A model generated the notes under the pieces. The model was not told the origin of the DNA, did no database searches, and worked only from the letters and a program-made list of their open reading frames with translations. Positions 15,637-24,308 of a stretch of DNA of 64,000 nt are shown here, piece after piece; the first letter of the stretch is position 1; each line of letters begins with the position of its first letter. Both the position numbers and the translations under genes were made by a program. This DNA comes from Acetobacter sacchari. Its GTDB lineage: Bacteria > Pseudomonadota > Alphaproteobacteria > Acetobacterales > Acetobacteraceae. The DNA lies in contig NZ_JAFVMF010000005.1 of NCBI RefSeq assembly GCF_017377715.1, positions 186,001-250,000 on the forward strand, written 5' to 3'.

Positions 15637-18600
15637 TCAGAACGATCCACGAAAATAGGACTGAAGCGGCGCGACTTCAAGCGGCCCTTCCAGCATTGCG
15701 CTGATTGCATAGGTCGCGGCCCGTGCGCCCGCCATCGTGGTGTAGTGCGGAATGCCCATGGTCAGGGCCGAACGGCGTATGTCGTAGCTGTCCTTAACTG
15801 CCTGCGCGCCCTGTGCGGTGTTGATCACCATCTGGACCTCGCCGGAGCGGATGGCGTCCACGCAGTGCGGGCGGCCTTCCAGCACCTTGCTCACGATCGC
15901 CACCTCGATTCCGGCCTCGCGCAGCCTCGCAGCTGTGCCGCGGGTGGCGAGGATCGAGAAACCCATCTGGATCAGACGGCGACCCAGAGGCGCAAGTTGC
16001 GCCTTGTCGCCGTCGCGCACCGACAGGAACACCGTCCCGGACAGGGGCAGCTTCACGCCGGCGCCGAGCTGGGATTTCGCGAAAGCGCGTTCGAAGGACG
16101 TGTCGAGGCCAATGACCTCACCGGTCGAGCGCATCTCCGGGCCGAGGATTGTGTCCACTCCCTGAAAGCGGTGGAACGGGAACACGGCCTCCTTGACGGC
16201 GACGTGTGGCACGACGGCCAGATCGTCCAGCTTGAACTCGCTCAGTTTCGAACCAGCCATGACCCGCGCGCCGATCTTCGCCACCGGCACGCCGGTCGCC
16301 TTCGCGACGAACGGCGCGGTGCGGGAGGCGCGGGGATTCACCTCCAGAACGAAGATCTCCTGATCCTTTATGGCGTACTGGACGTTCATCAGACCAACGA
16401 TGCCAAGTTCGCGGGCCATTGCCTCAGTCTGCGCCTTCAGTTCGGTGACGATGGCGGGAGAGAGTGTGTACGGCGGCAGGGCGCAGGCGCTGTCGCCAGA
16501 ATGGATGCCCGCTTCCTCGATATGCTCCATGACGCCTGCGACATAGACGTCCGAACCATCGGCGATGCAGTCCACGTCCGCCTCGATCGCGTCGTTCAGA
16601 TAGTGATCGATCAGCACCGGGCCGGACGACACTTCCGGTCCGGCCAGCAGCAGCACCGTCTTCATGTAGCGTTGCAGACCGGCGCGGTCGTAGACGATCT
16701 CCATCGCGCGGCCGCCAAGCACGTAGGACGGGCGCACCACCACCGGGTAGCCGACGCGCTCGGCCACGTCTTCCGCTTCGGCGGGGTTGCGGGCGATGCC
16801 GTTTTCCGGCTGGCGCAGGCCGAGCTTGCGCAGCATGGCCTGGAACCGTTCGCGGTCCTCGGCGCGGTCGATGGCGTCGGCGGGGGTGCCGAGCAGCGGA
16901 ATGCCCGCCTGTTCCAGAGCGTGCGACAGCTTCAGCGGCGTCTGGCCGCCATACTGCACGATGCAGCCCAGAACCTCGCCGCGCTCCTGCTCCTTGCGGA
17001 TCAGGGCGATTACGTCTTCGGCGGTCAGCGGCTCGAAATACAGACGATCAGAGGTGTCGTAATCGGTCGAAACCGTCTCGGGGTTGCAGTTGACCATGAC
17101 GGTCTCAAGCCCGGCCTCGCGCAGGGCGTAGGCGGCATGGACGCAGCAGTAGTCGAACTCGATGCCCTGACCAATCCGGTTTGGGCCGCCGCCGAGGATG
17201 ATGACCTTCTTGCGGTCCGTCGGATGCGATTCACAGACCGGCGCGCCGAAGCCGCCTTCGTAGGTCGAATACATATAGGGCGTCGCGGAAGCGAACTCGC
17301 CCGCGCATGTGTCGATGCGCTTGTAGACCGGCAGGACGCCTGCGGCCTGACGCAGCGTCGTGATTTCGGACGCCTTCGCGCCGGACAGACGCGCCAGTTG
17401 CACGTCGGAGAAGCCCATCGCCTTGAGCGTGCGCAGACCGCGCGCGTCTTTCGGCAGGCCATGATCGAGCACGCGCTTTTCTGCCTGCACGATCTTTTCC
17501 AGTTCGCGCAGGAACCATGGCTCGAAGCGGCAGGATTCGGCGATTTCCTCGACGGAAAGACCTGCGCGCAGCGCCTGCGCCGCCATCAGGATGCGCTCCG
17601 GGCGCGGCTGGGACAGTTCGGCGCGGAAGGCGTCCACGCCGCCGTCGCCGGGCGCCTCGACGGGGTCGAGCCCGGTCAGGCCGGTCTCCATCGAGCGCAG
17701 TCCCTTCTGCAGGGCTTCGGGGAACGAGCGGCCGATGGCCATCGCCTCGCCGACCGACTTCATGGACGTCGAGAGCAGTGCAGGGGTGCCGGGGAATTTT
17801 TCGAAGGTGAAGCGGGGGATCTTCACGACGACGTAGTCGATGGTCGGCTCGAACGAGGCGGGAGTCGTGCCGGTGATGTCGTTGGTGAGTTCGTCGAGCG
17901 TGTAGCCGACCGCGAGTTTCGCCGCGATCTTGGCGATCGGGAAGCCGGTCGCCTTGGACGCCAGAGCGGAAGAGCGCGAGACACGGGGGTTCATCTCGAT
18001 CACCACCATGCGCCCGTCGACCGGGTTGATGCCGAACTGCACGTTCGATCCGCCAGTCTCGACGCCGATGGCGCGCAGGCACGCGATCGAGGCGTCGCGC
18101 ATCCGCTGGTATTCCTTGTCGGTCAGCGTCAGCGCAGGCGCCACCGTGATGGAATCGCCGGTGTGGACGCCCATCGGGTCGATGTTCTCGATCGAGCAGA
18201 CGATGATGCAGTTATCGGCCTTGTCGCGCACGACCTCCATCTCGAACTCTTTCCAGCCGAGTACGGACTCCTCGACCAGAATTTCGGTCGTGGGCGAGGC
18301 GTCAAGGCCGGAGGTTACGATCTGGTCGAACTCTTCCTTGTTGTAGGCGATGCCGCCGCCCGACCCGCCCATGGTGAAGGAGGGGCGGATGACGGTGGGA
18401 AGGCCTATTTCCTTCAGGGCTTCGCGCGCTTCTTCAAGCGTATGGGCGATCAGGCTCTTCGGGCTTTCGATGCCGATGGCGTCCATCGCCTCGCGGAACT
18501 TCTGACGGTCTTCGGCGCGGTCGATCACGTCCGCCTTCGCGCCGATCAGTTCCACGCCGTGCTTGACCAGAAACCCGGAGGCGTCGAGCGCCATGGCGGC

Positions 18601-18891
18601 GTTCAGCGCGGTCTGTCCGCCCATGGTCGGCAGAATCGCGTCCGGCTTTTCCTTCAGGATGATCCGCTCGAGGAACTCCGGCGTGATGGGCTCGACATAG
18701 GTCGCGTCCGCAAGGCCGGGATCGGTCATGATCGTGGCCGGGTTGGAGTTCAGCAGGATGACGCGATAGCCCTCTTCCTTCAGCGCCTTGCAGGCCTGCG
18801 CGCCGGAGTAGTCAAACTCGCACGCCTGGCCGATGACGATAGGGCCTGCGCCGATGATGAGGATGGAGCGGAGGTCGGTCCGTTTGGGCAT
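15637..18891 (-). CDS. carB: Carbamoyl-phosphate synthase large subunit
   Basis: A 1084-residue subunit that makes carbamoyl phosphate from bicarbonate, ATP and ammonia delivered by CarA. It feeds pyrimidine and arginine synthesis. Both duplicated ATP-grasp halves are complete: first [58 protein letters not shown]; second [55 protein letters not shown]. The C-terminal MGS-like allosteric domain begins around 940 ([20 protein letters not shown]). The ATG lies 5 bases after the stop of the AAA ATPase gene and its ribosome binding site overlaps that stop, so the two are translationally linked. Confidence 0.98.
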
Positions 18892-18896
18892 GGGCG

Positions 18897-20102
18897 TCAG
18901 TCCTCTGAATAGGCCGGGTCGGAACCCATGGCGCGGATGCGAAGGAGGTAGTTCTCAAAGAGGGGAACAGTGAAGGCGACCTCGCCATGAGCGGGGCTGT
19001 AGATCATGCCCTTGCCGATCAGCGCGGTGCGCAGAGGGGCGAGGGCGGCGGTCCGGGCGTTCATCCGTTCGGCGATTTCGCCCGAGCGGTGGGCTCCGGG
19101 GCCGAGTTCGGCCATCGCCTGACAATACTCCCGCTCGCGCGGGGTCAGGCGCTCGTAACGCATGCGGAAAAATCCTGCGTCAAGCGAGGTCAGCGACACC
19201 TCCGTCGCCACGGCGATGTCGCCGGGCAGGATCATGTCGCCATGCGCCACGTTCCAGGCGTGGTAGGCCCATTCCTGGATGAAATAGGGGTAGCCTTGGG
19301 TGATGCGGATCACCTCGTCTACGGCGGCCTGCGTGAAATCCACACCCTCTCGCTCGGCGGGTGGACGCAGGGCCTCGGCGGTCTCGTCCGGGGACAGGGG
19401 GCCGAGAACGGGAAATTCGAACAACCGCTCGGCATAGGAGCGGGAGCGGCCGGTCATCGCCACGACGTGCGGCAGTCCCGCGCCGAGCAATACGACAGGC
19501 AGTCCCTCGCGCATCACGCGGTGCATAGCCATGATCAGCGCGCCCATGTCGAGCTCGCTGAGGCCCTGTATCTCGTCCACGAACAGGGCGACTCCTGTCT
19601 GGCGCGACCGCGCGGCGAGACCCAGCGCGGAGATCATGTCCGGAAGATCGGTCTCCAGATCGCCGCTGTCGGCGGTGCCGCGTTCGGGCTCAACGTCCAG
19701 CTCGATGGAGAAGCCCATCGGATGGTGAATCCGCAGGCCCGCCGCGAAGCTTTTGAGAACGCGAAGGCCCCGTTTCACCTGTTCGGTGACTGCGCCGAGC
19801 CGGTCTAGTTCCAGCATCATGCGGCGGACATGCGGGGCCAGAAGCTGGCCCAGCGGCTTGTCCTCGCTCGCTTCGATGAAGCAGGTCAGATACCCGGCGC
19901 TTTCGGCGAGTTGCTGCGCACGGCCAAGAACGACGGTTTTGCCCACGCCGCGCAACCCGGTGGCGATGAAGCCGCGAGCGCTCTTCCCGGCAAGGGCGCG
20001 CTGCAACGCGATCCCGGCCTGCGTGAATAGCTCGTGCCGTCCAGCAAGTTCAGGCGGAGACGCGCCGGCGCCCGGCACGTAAGGGTTGCGGACTGGGTCC
20101 AT
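18897..20102 (-). CDS. AAA-type ATPase (archaeal-ATPase/Orc-like fold) between carA and carB
   Basis: A 401-residue cytoplasmic P-loop ATPase. Walker A is GLRGVGKT (residues 49-56) and Walker B VALFVDEI (171-178). A sensor-like stretch LLGAGLP follows (205-211) and an Orc/archaeal-ATPase-type [12 protein letters not shown] (267-278). The C-terminal about 80 residues ([49 protein letters not shown]) look like a winged helix ending in a beta-hairpin wing. This organisation is common in STAND/Orc-like ATPases that act on DNA or partner proteins. Its true function is unknown to me. It begins 21 bases after carA and ends 5 bases before carB, so it must be cotranscribed with both. Base composition matches the neighbours, so no recent transfer is evident. 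Confidence 0.85.
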
Positions 20103-20123: not shown

Positions 20124-21551
20124 TTACGCCGCGTTCTTCGCGGCGTGCGCGTCGATCATCGCGACGAAACGCTCGAACAGGTAGAAGCTGTCCGACGGGC
20201 CGGGCGAGGCTTCCGGGTGGTATTGCACCGAGAACGCCGGCAGCGTCTCGGAGGCGATGCCTTCGTTGGAGCGGTCGAACAGGCTGACATGCGTCACGCG
20301 CACGTCGTTCGGCAGGGATTTTTCATCCACCGCGAAGCCATGATTCTGGCTGGTGATCTCCACGCGCCCGGTGGACAAATCCTTCACCGGCTGGTTTGCG
20401 CCGCGATGCCCCTGCGCCAGTTTGTAGGTCTTCGCGCCGAGTGACAGCGCCAGAAGCTGGTGACCAAGGCAGATGCCGAACACCGGCACGCCCGCATCCA
20501 GTACGCCGCGTATCGCAGGGACTGCGTATTCCGCCGTAGCCGCCGGGTCTCCGGGGCCATTGGACAGGAAGACGCCTTCGGGCTTGAGCGCCAGAATTTC
20601 TTCGGCGGAGGTCGTCGCGGGCACGACGGTCACGTCGCACCCGACGGTCGCGAGGCAACGCAGGATGTTGCGTTTGGCGCCGTAATCGACGGCGACGACG
20701 CGGCGCAGGCGCTCCGGCAGGGGCTTCGTTGCGGCGGGCCATTCCCACACGCCCTGATCCCAGGCGTAGGGCTTGTCGCAGGTGACGGCCTTCGCGAGGT
20801 CCATCCCTTCCAGCCCCGGCCATGCGGCGGCTTCGCGCTGGAGCGCGTCGATGTCGAGTCTGCCGTCGATGGCGTGCATCAGCACGGCGGTCTGCGGGCC
20901 GCCATCGCGGATGCGCAGTGTGATCGCGCGGGTGTCGATGTTGCAGATGCCAGGAACACCGCGCGCCTTGAGCCACGCGTCGAGATCCTCGGTCGCGCGC
21001 CAGCTCGCAGGTTCGGTGAGGTCCTGCTTCACCACCAGTCCGCGCGCCGAAACCTTCGCGGCCTCGTCATCCAGCGCGTTGGCACCCACATTGCCGATAT
21101 GAGGGAAGGTGAAGGTGATGATCTGCCCGGCGAAGGACGGATCCGTCAGGGTTTCCTGATAGCCGGTCATGCCGGTCGAGAAGCACAGTTCGCCCACGGC
21201 GGCGGCGGGCGTCGGCGCGCCGAAGGCGACGCCCCAGAACACCGACCCGTCGGCGAGGATGAGGGCGGCGGTTGCGCCTTCAGGCGCGGTGACGGCGGCG
21301 GTGCTGGCGGAAGGCTGCATGTCGGAGGTGCGTCCCTGGGCGTGAGTGACGGAGGAAGGCGTGTCGGCGACGTCGGGTTGCAGGTCTTCGAGCGCGACGC
21401 CTGCGGCCCGCGCTACGGTTGGCCAGTGCTTCGGCGGAATGGCGCGCGCCTGCCGCCATTTGCGCACGGCTTCCGTGCCTACGCCCGTCAATTCGGCCGT
21501 TTTTTCCGGTCCGCCCAGGCGTTCGATGATGCTATCTACTGAAAGCCGCAT
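20124..21551 (-). CDS. carA: Carbamoyl-phosphate synthase small subunit with N-terminal helix-turn-helix extension
   Basis: A 475-residue glutamine amidotransferase that supplies ammonia to CarB. Residues 92-475 are a complete CarA: CPSase small-chain domain (ALILADGSVFWGVAFG, GELCFSTGMTGYQETLTDPS) and class I glutaminase with nucleophile Cys361 in FGICLGHQLLAL and His445/Glu447 in VQYHPE. Residues 1-60 are an extra domain with a Cro/YdaS-like helix-turn-helix pattern (SIIERLGGPEKTAELTG, VRKWRQARAIPPKHW, VARAAGVALEDL), joined by a Ser/Thr/Ala-rich linker (61-91). The first ATG has GGGAG ten bases upstream. An internal ATG (Met78, 21320) would give a normal-length CarA but has only a weak Shine-Dalgarno. 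The extension may bind DNA or a partner (inference). Confidence 0.95.
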   Translation of the reverse strand: MRLSVDSIIERLGGPEKTAELTGVGTEAVRKWRQARAIPPKHWPTVARAAGVALEDLQPDVADTPSSVTHAQGRTSDMQPSASTAAVTAPEGATAALILADGSVFWGVAFGAPTPAAAVGELCFSTGMTGYQETLTDPSFAGQIITFTFPHIGNVGANALDDEAAKVSARGLVVKQDLTEPASWRATEDLDAWLKARGVPGICNIDTRAITLRIRDGGPQTAVLMHAIDGRLDIDALQREAAAWPGLEGMDLAKAVTCDKPYAWDQGVWEWPAATKPLPERLRRVVAVDYGAKRNILRCLATVGCDVTVVPATTSAEEILALKPEGVFLSNGPGDPAATAEYAVPAIRGVLDAGVPVFGICLGHQLLALSLGAKTYKLAQGHRGANQPVKDLSTGRVEITSQNHGFAVDEKSLPNDVRVTHVSLFDRSNEGIASETLPAFSVQYHPEASPGPSDSFYLFERFVAMIDAHAAKNAA

Positions 21552-21602
21552 GTTCGCGTGTCTCCCTGCCGCTCTGGTCTCCTATCAGGCCGGAATGGTG
21601 TT

Positions 21603-21653
21603 GGGAAGAAAATTCCCGCAGGTGCGTGACTTTGCTTTGTGGGAAAAAAATTC
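21603..21653. repeat. Two near-identical 13-bp repeats upstream of carA
   Basis: gggaagaaaattc (21603-21615) and gggaaaaaaattc (21641-21653) differ by one base and start 38 bp apart. The first is also part of an inverted repeat (gggaa-5-ttccc). They lie 52-102 bases upstream of the carA ATG, where operators are expected, and could bind a regulator of carA or of the divergent yqeY gene. Confidence 0.5.
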
Positions 21654-21820
21654 TTTCCGGCTGACGCCTCATGCGTGAGCCAGCGGCCGGTGTCGGCCGA
21701 ATTGTCGGCGCGAACCATGTCGGTGGAACGGCTCCGCAGGACATTCTTCTGTGGCCCGGAGGCGTCCTGTCGGGCATGACGTGCGGATTGTGAGTAATTT
21801 GCCGATCTGGAGTTGACCCG

Positions 21821-22394: not shown

Positions 22395-24308
22395 ATGTGG
22401 CGTGGCGCCGTGAGTCTCGATCCCGCCTTTCTTGACGAACTGCGTGCTCGCACGCCCATAGCAGCCCTGATCGGGCGGCGGGTGAAGCTCGCGCGGTCTG
22501 GTCGCAACTGGAAGGGGTGCTGCCCTTTCCACGGCGAAAAGACGCCGTCCTTCTACGTTTATGACGATCATTTCCACTGCTTCGGGTGCGGCGCGCATGG
22601 CGACGCCATTTCGTTCGTCATGCAGATGGAGGGAAAATCTTTCCCGGAAGCGGTCGAGAGTCTGGCGGGCGAGGCGGCGCTGGAAGTGCCGAAGGCCAGC
22701 CCTCGCGCCCGTGAGGAAGCTGCGCGCGCACGTTCATTGGGCGATGTGCTTGAAGCGACGCAGCGGATCTGGTGCCGCGATCTTTACGAACCGACCGGGC
22801 GGGCCGGGCTCGACTATCTGCGTGGCCGTGGCCTGACTGCCGAGACCATCGCCGCTTTCGGACTGGGCTGGGCGACGGATCGGCGCGGGGCATTGGTCGA
22901 CGCCCTGCGGCCGCTAGGGATCGCCCCGGACGCGATGGCCGAGGCCGGATTGATGCGTCTGGACGAGGACGGACGCCCGAAGGGTGAACTGTTCTGGGGA
23001 CGCGTCACGTTTCCGATCCGCGACCGGCGGGGAGACCTTGTCTCTTTCGGGGGGCGGATACTCGGCGACGGTCAGCCGAAATACCTCAACGGCCCGGAGA
23101 CGGCGCTATTCTCCAAGCGCCGCCTGCTCTTCGGTCTCGATCGCGCCCGCGCAGCGATCCGCGCGCCGCGTCCGAAAGGCGCTGCGGCGGTCGAAGCGGT
23201 AGTCGTCGAGGGCTACATGGACGTGATCGCCTTGCATCAGGCGGGTTTTACCGGCGCGGTGGCCCCGCTGGGCACGGCGCTGACGTCGGAGCAGCTTGAA
23301 GTGCTCTGGCAGGTCGCTCCTGCGCCTATTCTATGCTTCGACGGCGACGCCGCAGGGCGACGGGCGGCCATCCGCGCGGCCGAAACGGCGATGCCCCTGC
23401 TGAGCGCCGAGCGCGGACTGCGCTTCTGCGTCCTTCCGGACGGGGAGGATCCGGACAGCCTGATCCGCAATCGCGGCAGGGAGGCTGTCGTGGCGATGTT
23501 CGCCGGGGCCAGTCCGCTGTCGGAGATGCTGTTCGAGCTTCTGGCCGAAGGCACGCCCGCCAACGCCACGCCGGAGCAGCGTGCTGCGTTGCGCGCGCGT
23601 CTGATCGAGACCGCGGCGAAGATTCCGGACAAGGGGCTGGCGTCGGAATACCGGGCCACGTTGCTGGATCGGTTTTTCGCGACGTATCGGGGACGGCGCG
23701 GAGGCGCGGGACTTCCTGGCAATCGGCGCACGGGAGGTCGCAGCGGCTCATGGAATGGCCGTGACGCCCGCGTCGTCGATATTCCTCCGCCGCCAGCTGG
23801 GGCGAGCGGCCCGAGTGGCGTTGACGCGCGGTTGGGGATGCTTGCGGTCATAGCGATGCGTCATCCCGAATTGATCTCCGGCGTGGAGGACGCGTGGTGC
23901 AGGCTGGATTTGCCGCCGGATCAGGCTGAGTTGCGTGAGGCGCTGCTCGACTATGCGTCGTCCGGCGATCTCTCCGGGCAGGGAGGGGGGGGCGATGGCG
24001 CGCTGGAGGAACGGGTTTTGAGCGCTCTGGCGTCGCGTGGTCTGCGTGAGCGGGCGGAAGCGTTGATTCGTAATTCCTGTCTGCCGCGTCCCGGCGCCAC
24101 CTTTGGGGACGGGTTGACCGATGTGGCGCCGGAGGTGCGCTGGTGGCACTTTTACGCCAGCGTCAATCGTCAGCGCTTCGAGGCGGAGATCGCACAGGAT
24201 ACGCAAAGCTGGATCGACGGCGGCCTCGACCCGATCGTTTGGGACAGGCTCAAGTCGAGGCTGGAGGCTCAGGCCTCCCTTCGCGTGCTGGAAGACGGAT
24301 CGTTCTGA
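22395..24308 (+). CDS. dnaG: DNA primase
   Basis: A 637-residue primase that makes RNA primers at the replication fork. The CHC2 zinc-binding domain is at the N-terminus (Cys43, His46, Cys62, Cys65 in CCPFHGEKTPSF and HCFGCGAHGD). The catalytic core follows (FGLGWATDRRGALVDAL, RVTFPIRDRRGDLVSFGGRI, PKYLNGPETALFSKRRLLFG) with TOPRIM motifs VVVEGYMDVIALHQAG and ILCFDGDAAGRRA. The C-terminal about 170 residues form the helicase-interacting region. ATG 22395 is used, though GTG 22410 (MSLDPAFLDELR) is an equally plausible start. It is the middle gene of a yqeY-dnaG-rpoD group. Confidence 0.96.
   Translation: MWRGAVSLDPAFLDELRARTPIAALIGRRVKLARSGRNWKGCCPFHGEKTPSFYVYDDHFHCFGCGAHGDAISFVMQMEGKSFPEAVESLAGEAALEVPKASPRAREEAARARSLGDVLEATQRIWCRDLYEPTGRAGLDYLRGRGLTAETIAAFGLGWATDRRGALVDALRPLGIAPDAMAEAGLMRLDEDGRPKGELFWGRVTFPIRDRRGDLVSFGGRILGDGQPKYLNGPETALFSKRRLLFGLDRARAAIRAPRPKGAAAVEAVVVEGYMDVIALHQAGFTGAVAPLGTALTSEQLEVLWQVAPAPILCFDGDAAGRRAAIRAAETAMPLLSAERGLRFCVLPDGEDPDSLIRNRGREAVVAMFAGASPLSEMLFELLAEGTPANATPEQRAALRARLIETAAKIPDKGLASEYRATLLDRFFATYRGRRGGAGLPGNRRTGGRSGSWNGRDARVVDIPPPPAGASGPSGVDARLGMLAVIAMRHPELISGVEDAWCRLDLPPDQAELREALLDYASSGDLSGQGGGGDGALEERVLSALASRGLRERAEALIRNSCLPRPGATFGDGLTDVAPEVRWWHFYASVNRQRFEAEIAQDTQSWIDGGLDPIVWDRLKSRLEAQASLRVLEDGSF

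Follow-up and report, generated by a model that had tools for sequence, protein, structure and literature searches.

A Cro-type helix-turn-helix domain fused to CarA in Acetobacteraceae, and operator-like palindromes that suggest autogenous regulation

We analyzed a stretch of 64,000 nucleotides from Acetobacter sacchari (contig NZ_JAFVMF010000005.1 of assembly GCF_017377715.1, positions 186,001 to 250,000; hereafter the window, in whose numbering all coordinates are given). It carries a carA gene in which a Cro/YdaS-like helix-turn-helix (HTH) domain precedes the glutaminase subunit in a single open frame, with the following parts:

20124..21551, minus strand: HTH-CarA fusion gene, 475 aa, ATG at 21551 (open frame; matches to NF046037 and TIGR01368)
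21378..21542, minus strand: Cro/YdaS-like HTH (carph-isopro, NF046037), residues 4-58 (profile matches, AlphaFold2, Cro structures)
21447..21476, minus strand: recognition helix, residues 26-35, TEAVRKWRQA (AlphaFold2 helix; invariant residues)
21276..21377, minus strand: linker rich in Pro, Ala, Ser and Thr, residues 59-92, holding Met78 (low identity, low pLDDT)
21318..21320, minus strand: codon of Met78 inside the linker (sequence)
20124..21275, minus strand: CarA glutaminase subunit (TIGR01368, E = 8e-134; invariant C361, H445 and E447)

The NCBIfam model NF046037 (curated cut-off 38 bits) matches residues 5-58 with 73.0 bits for the isolated domain (E = 1.7e-20) and 68.9 bits for the whole protein, which places the HTH in carph-isopro. 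The model describes the same domain and supplies its name, which is already known and not new; the name carph-isopro was not found in the open-licence PMC literature searched. Pfam YdaS_toxin (PF15943, gathering score 30) gives 32.8 bits with the isolated domain and 28.7 bits with the whole protein, and P22_Cro (PF14549) gives 24.4 bits against a gathering score of 30.2, i.e., a remote relation only and not membership. AlphaFold2 models show a four-helix HTH fold (helices at 5-11, 15-22, 26-35 and 40-50, with pLDDT in blocks of 85-96 up to residue 50), then a low-confidence stretch at 61-85 (pLDDT < 50), then the CarA core. A profile built from 47 sequences matches Cro structures (XPH1 5w8y, 4.5e-4; 3bd1, 8.7e-4; 2hin, 2.2e-3; also 1rzs), and Foldseek with the modelled domain ranks 6on0, N15 Cro bound to operator DNA, first (E = 0.02, prob 1.00), although some dioxygenase chains nearly equal it in score. 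The domain is thus like P22, N15 and Xfaso1 Cro in sequence profile and fold, but those are free phage repressors with no enzyme fused. The rest of the protein is spanned by TIGR01368 (residues 95-467, 446 bits, E = 8e-134) and is also matched by Pfam CPSase_sm_chain and GATase. C361, H445 and E447, which we take to be the equivalents of the catalytic residues of E. coli CarA, are invariant across 28 aligned rows, as are E27, A28, R30, K31, W32 and R33 of the recognition helix. Judged by these matches, CarA is a complete glutaminase subunit behind a Cro-type HTH. The preliminary description of this locus had proposed an N-terminal Cro/YdaS-like HTH, a linker and a complete glutaminase subunit, and all three were recovered, the linker being predicted as disordered; the span it noted, 21318..21551, corresponds to residues 1-78, of which the HTH proper takes about 21378..21542.

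Poor conservation of the N-terminus relative to the enzyme core would have spoken against the fusion. Across 29 full-length relatives, identity to the window protein averages 0.81 over residues 21-45 and 0.63 over residues 4-56; the linker (57-92) reaches 0.17 and the core (95-467) 0.75. The recognition region is therefore not poorly conserved, exceeding even the core, whereas the whole domain lies somewhat below the core. The architecture is also widespread: 248 of 250 Acetobacterales genomes, all from the family of the window, have an HTH match at E <= 1e-5, and the two that do not are small (G535, 1.7 Mb, from the genus of the window, and G029, 1.9 Mb). HTH-CarA is seen, for example, in the named relatives Acetobacter nitrogenifigens (97% in the domain), Gluconacetobacter, Komagataeibacter and Novacetimonas. 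The whole CarA protein finds some match in 149 of 150 genomes of the family; among the matches listed, most start at residues 1-5, in a minority of genomes the best one starts no earlier than residue 50, and a few genomes have weak matches only. Twelve late-starting matches were followed, and the HTH was present in ten of them (L161, L162, L164 and L267-L273, the HTH being on a separate contig in L164 and in an early-stopping frame in L268) and missing in two (L159, L160). Within the genome of A. sacchari carA alone passes the domain cut-off, with ten weaker places at E <= 1; the same loose search finds matches in 12 of 14 control genomes, none above the cut-off. Among the matches listed from the open-licence PMC literature, no title or abstract beginning had the HTH-CarA fusion as its topic.

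The HTH is in frame with CarA, with no stop, in 80 of 80 named relatives. Stops within matches had hinted at split genes, and we considered the HTH as a separate upstream open reading frame; this was rejected, since the first 115 codons are free of stops in 62 of 66 loci. Of the remaining four, two lack an HTH (L159, L160), L163 enters a repeat at a contig end, and L164 holds, on a different contig, the HTH that belongs to the genome of L163. In five loci flagged for stops (L020, L021, L023, L027, L036) the first stop lies 450-474 codons on, at the C-terminus. An exception to the intact fusion is L268 (G088), where the HTH frame stops after 187 residues, and G033, with an open frame given as 189 aa, may be a second; for both, the cause could be a broken frame, a fault in the assembly or an HTH that is genuinely separate.

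Upstream of carA, comparison among relatives revealed two palindromic sites, near which lies a promoter-like element:

21603..21617, no strand: candidate proximal operator GGGAATTTTCTTCCC (carA strand), -66 to -52 from the ATG (upstream comparison)
21641..21658, no strand: candidate distal operator-like site GGAAAGAATTTTTTTCCC, its other half degenerate in this species (upstream comparison)
21581..21586, minus strand: possible -10 element GATAGG, 16 nt downstream of the proximal operator (by eye)

The distal site keeps its TTCCC half intact, 38 bp upstream of the proximal TTCCC, and in many relatives the whole distal site is intact. By eye, the proximal site would overlap the -35 region. The palindrome GGGAA-N5-TTCCC was first recognized by reading 59 HTH-carA upstream loci, and was then counted in 135 HTH-bearing loci picked from family genomes already matched, with 134 distinct upstream sequences. 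The inner GGAA-N5-TTCC is exact in 130 of 134 upstream regions of 260 nt (100 dinucleotide shuffles: mean 1.02, maximum 5), and spacers of 2-4 or 6-9 instead of N5 occur in 0-8 of the 134; the four regions without it (L017, L213, L225, L269) have near sites by eye. The full GGGAA-N5-TTCCC is exact in 111/134 and within one mismatch in 123/134 (shuffled mean 2.3), with at least two such sites in 101/134 (shuffled mean 0.0). Within two mismatches it occurs in 134/134, yet shuffles then average 23.5. Among the 80 named relatives, 66 have at least two sites, 13 have one and 1 has none. Of 74 pairs of neighboring GGAA-N5-TTCC sites, 50 are spaced at 37-40 bp and 12 at 43-44 bp. Many genomes have a site at -24 to -28. 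In other genera (L081, L027, L032) the site lies nearer the start codon than in the window and other Acetobacter-like loci, between TTGATC and CATA (by eye).

The site was not found where the HTH is missing. We assembled 30 control genomes without the fusion (28 from other families of the class, together with G535 and G029), of which 29 had a usable carA start. GGGAA-N5-TTCCC within one mismatch occurs in 0 of these 29 HTH-less upstream regions (500 nt), and within two mismatches in 2 of 29 (G535, L176). G116, examined apart, has no palindrome within two mismatches in 700 nt upstream of carA, so that three small-genome members of the family lack both the HTH and a site within one mismatch (L169 in G535, L194 in G029, L160 in G116). 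That the palindromes belong to the divergent yqeY was rejected: yqeY is nearby on the opposite strand in 26 of 30 controls, none of the 29 has the site, and five named loci without a yqeY match retain it. The palindrome therefore follows the HTH and not the neighborhood.

Relatives of the HTH are found on other enzymes. A survey of 385 genomes of the class gave a domain match at E <= 1e-5 in 91, and above the cut-off in 73. From a longer list we read 82 match places outside the family (three of them in one genome), and the CarA core was matched at none of the 82, so that HTH-CarA is confined to the family in this sample. In other alphaproteobacteria, HTH relatives head HisZ, CoaBC, PyrB, ArgB, NnrE, Ccr, SerA, PdhA, and a mitofilin-like protein. 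NCBIfam and Pfam matches in representatives identified HisZ, crotonyl-CoA carboxylase/reductase (L076), a TorD-like chaperone, NAD(P)H-hydrate epimerase/dehydratase, ArgB, SerA (L122), PyrB, PdhA (L145), CoaBC, and a GlmU-like protein (L149). The HTHs of the SerA, NnrE, PyrB and Ccr representatives score above the domain cut-off; those of HisZ (L143, 35.0 bits), ArgB (L144, 34.8), PdhA (31.9), TorD-like (31.5), CoaBC (L148, 28.6) and GlmU-like (L149, 28.5) fall below 38 bits and are therefore relatives, not strict members of the domain. The largest group outside CarA is mitofilin-like, with 51 loci (L048-L075, L108-L135 and others), whose tested member L061 matches Pfam Mitofilin; HemD-like frames end upstream of this gene (six loci, by eye). 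A DNA-binding domain on a mitofilin-like protein is odd. Three genomes (G261, G716, G717) each have two different fusions, PyrB and NnrE (L140/L072, L391/L395, L392/L397). An HTH of this type also occurs in short, unfused proteins (L136, L137, L153), and these are possible donors of the fused domain.

With further loci added for the HisZ, NnrE/PyrB, CoaBC and ArgB lineages, palindromes of a different sequence were seen upstream of other fusions. HTH-HisZ genes have TTCAT-N5-ATGAA in 15 of 15, and all 15 also have two or more copies of TTCA-N7-TGAA at a distance of 39 bp; a HisZ fusion from a third family (L147) has one exact HisZ palindrome. HTH-PyrB genes have TTGCG-N5-CGCAA in 3 of 3, and palindromes at the Ccr and TorD-like genes were noted by eye only. 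When six patterns (CarA, HisZ, CoaBC, PyrB, ArgB, NnrE) were tabulated against the six groups, each occurred only in its own group, with all off-diagonal cells zero and the CarA cell at 129 of 134 within 150 nt.

These observations lead us to regard it as probable that HTH-CarA is an autogenous regulator, likely a repressor, of its own operon, and HTH-CarA is best read, on the sequences compared, as one member of a larger class of enzymes that carry an HTH. A DNA-binding domain on an enzyme, by sequence and predicted fold, and an operator-like site at the enzyme's own gene, both marks of a trigger enzyme, are present. The preliminary description had offered two readings, an enzyme that regulates itself and the fusion of a small regulator gene to carA; with a Cro-type HTH in frame and an upstream palindrome absent from 29 unfused genes, both fit. 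HTH-CarA would be a catalytically complete CarA that doubles as a sequence-specific DNA-binding protein. The enzymes joined to such HTHs are mostly oligomers, and the enzyme oligomers, here of CarA with CarB, would bring HTH domains together and so supply the pairing that a Cro-type HTH needs. An HTH pair would bind GGGAA-N5-TTCCC at the carA promoter, two sites about 38 bp apart would most likely be filled together, and two palindromes could conceivably take the four HTHs of one (CarAB)4 assembly. Binding would lower transcription of carA and the genes behind it, and the signal would be the enzyme level, the assembly state, or the UMP/ornithine state of the complex. The fusion, the predicted fold, the conserved operator-like site, its absence where the HTH is missing and the distinct palindromes of other fusions are what the analysis shows; HTH binding to the palindromes, the direction of control, the pairing by oligomers, and the signal are inferred. 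For the class as a whole we lean toward the view that a phage-type Cro domain became the N-terminus of unrelated biosynthetic enzymes in Alphaproteobacteria, seemingly on several occasions, that a separate promoter palindrome was retained or evolved with each fusion (often paired at ~38-39 bp for CarA and HisZ), and that each enzyme may sense its own amount or assembly state and set its own expression without a separate regulator.

Several results weigh against this interpretation. A sigma-70 consensus scan of the carA upstream region found no promoter (Gluconobacter promoters are described as lax, with -35 ttGnnn and spacing 16-23, in the excerpted text of PMC5756330). Genome-wide, the reversed control pattern has a frequency of the same order as the operator pattern: the genome of A. 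sacchari (4.55 Mb) has three exact GGGAA-N5-TTCCC sites and two of the reversed pattern, and 60 family genomes have 0-13 and 0-15, respectively. One further exact site in the window, at 22631..22645, lies inside the frame 22395..24308, dnaG-like by position and by eye. Because the reversed pattern is similarly frequent, it is position, not abundance, that carries the operator argument; of 20 genomes with complete site lists, 18 have a site just upstream of carA, the exceptions being G019, with carA only weakly matched, and G047. At the other fusions, coverage is incomplete for CoaBC (TGAA-N4-TTCA in 26 of 30) and the pattern is only partly shared for ArgB (2 of 4) and NnrE (3 of 8). The HisZ palindrome was not seen in the HisZ fusions of another family (L139, L262, L263). 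The mitofilin group has no clear operator at the gene start, CGTACG being enriched upstream (39 of 52 within 700 nt; shuffled mean 8.5) but scattered. The non-CarA patterns were selected from the same sequences in which they were later counted and the loci are related, so that the group counts measure conservation and not independent events. A variant of the recognition helix was also considered as independent evidence. With S after RKWR, CGGAA-N5-TTCCG is found at all sites in 7 of 7 rows, and with Q in 2 of 123, at least one GGGAA..TTCCC being present in 110 of 123; but the two Q-helix rows and one H-helix row likewise have CGG at all sites, and the four S-helix rows in the tree (those with full genes) are one clade (97/69). 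The change in helix and operator was probably a single evolutionary event, and because the S rows are monophyletic we count the co-variation as weak support.

The direction of control might be the reverse, with the HTH binding the palindromes but activating carA as a class II activator that touches the -35 region, and we consider this unlikely. At the window and Acetobacter-like loci the arrangement would suit it, for the proximal site would overlap the -35 region and a -10-like CTG.TAG lies ~16 nt downstream (by eye). In L081, L027 and L032, however, the site by eye falls between the putative -35 and -10, a position in which a bound dimer should obstruct polymerase, which makes repression the likelier direction. 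Small Cro proteins are also mainly repressors.

Another explanation places the main start at Met78 or an equivalent linker Met, with the HTH as a minor product or a separate regulator. The translation signals are as the preliminary description gave them, by eye, with a good Shine-Dalgarno-like stretch before the first ATG and a weaker context at Met78:

21562..21567, minus strand: Shine-Dalgarno-like AGGGAG, 10 nt before the first ATG (by eye)

An in-frame linker ATG is present in 74 of 80 named relatives, 58 of which have a Shine-Dalgarno-like stretch, and two forms of CarA may therefore be made; the short HTH frames of L268 and, as given, G033 would also agree with a separate product. The linker Met, however, is found in only 82 of 125 distinct linkers of the wider set, and the HTH frame has no stop before residue 350 or the locus end in 134 of 135 loci, many of which are short and end near codon 110. 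Synthesis of both products would still be compatible with autoregulation, and we regard a main start within the linker as improbable.

It is more improbable still that another transcription factor binds the palindromes and that the HTH of CarA has lost DNA binding, persisting as a protein contact or a relic. A site at -24 to -28, as seen in many genomes, could be used by any promoter regulator. Yet the operator and the HTH are missing together, residues 21-45 are better conserved than the enzyme core, the other HTH-enzyme fusions have distinct palindromes of their own, and the helix variant goes with the operator variant, though probably through one change. That the palindromes are RNA hairpins (attenuation) or structural DNA, as inverted repeats near the start codon in many genomes might suggest, is scarcely credible given a stem of just five pairs, a spacer constant at 5, sites placed between the putative -35 and -10 in some genera (by eye), and frequent pairs with a preferred spacing.

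To our knowledge, few enzymes repress their own operon by means of an attached DNA-binding domain, and these, BirA and PutA among them, are unconnected examples. The DNA-binding fold of BirA is a winged HTH and that of PutA a ribbon-helix-helix, both unlike the Cro-type HTH. HTH-CarA as an autogenous repressor would resemble group II biotin protein ligase BirA and PutA in that the enzyme also represses its own pathway operon (excerpt of PMC6978683); these are other enzymes, and repression is demonstrated there and inferred for HTH-CarA. At E. coli carAB, the trigger enzymes PepA and PyrH likewise regulate carAB transcription, but the enzymes that bind or assist at that promoter are different ones, and CarA itself is given no such role in the excerpted text (PMC6245113). 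BzdR also has an HTH linked to an enzyme fold, one like that of shikimate kinase, but its enzyme activity is lost and it controls benzoate degradation genes (excerpt of PMC3602430), whereas CarA keeps its catalytic residues. As far as the searched literature goes, three things are new: the operator-like site, the fact that it and the HTH are missing together, and the recurrence of the arrangement on unrelated enzymes. One small module seems to have been joined to enzymes of several pathways (arginine, pyrimidine, histidine, coenzyme A and serine metabolism, NAD repair, and central carbon metabolism), and for several of these fusions operators can be recognized. If the proposed reading holds, the fusions would be a series of natural experiments on regulators arising by fusion, with targets predictable from sequence; they would explain how acetic-acid bacteria control carAB and suggest a minimal design for self-limiting enzymes.

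Two genes follow carA in its presumed operon:

18897..20102, minus strand: AAA_16 ATPase gene, 401 aa, between carA and carB (AAA_16 match)
15637..18891, minus strand: carB, downstream in the presumed operon (NF003671)

Because carB is downstream on the same strand, the whole set (carA, the ATPase gene and carB) would be co-controlled. Within the fetched flank, an ATPase homologue was found in 13 of 80 named relatives, and the start of carB was seen in 67 of 80.
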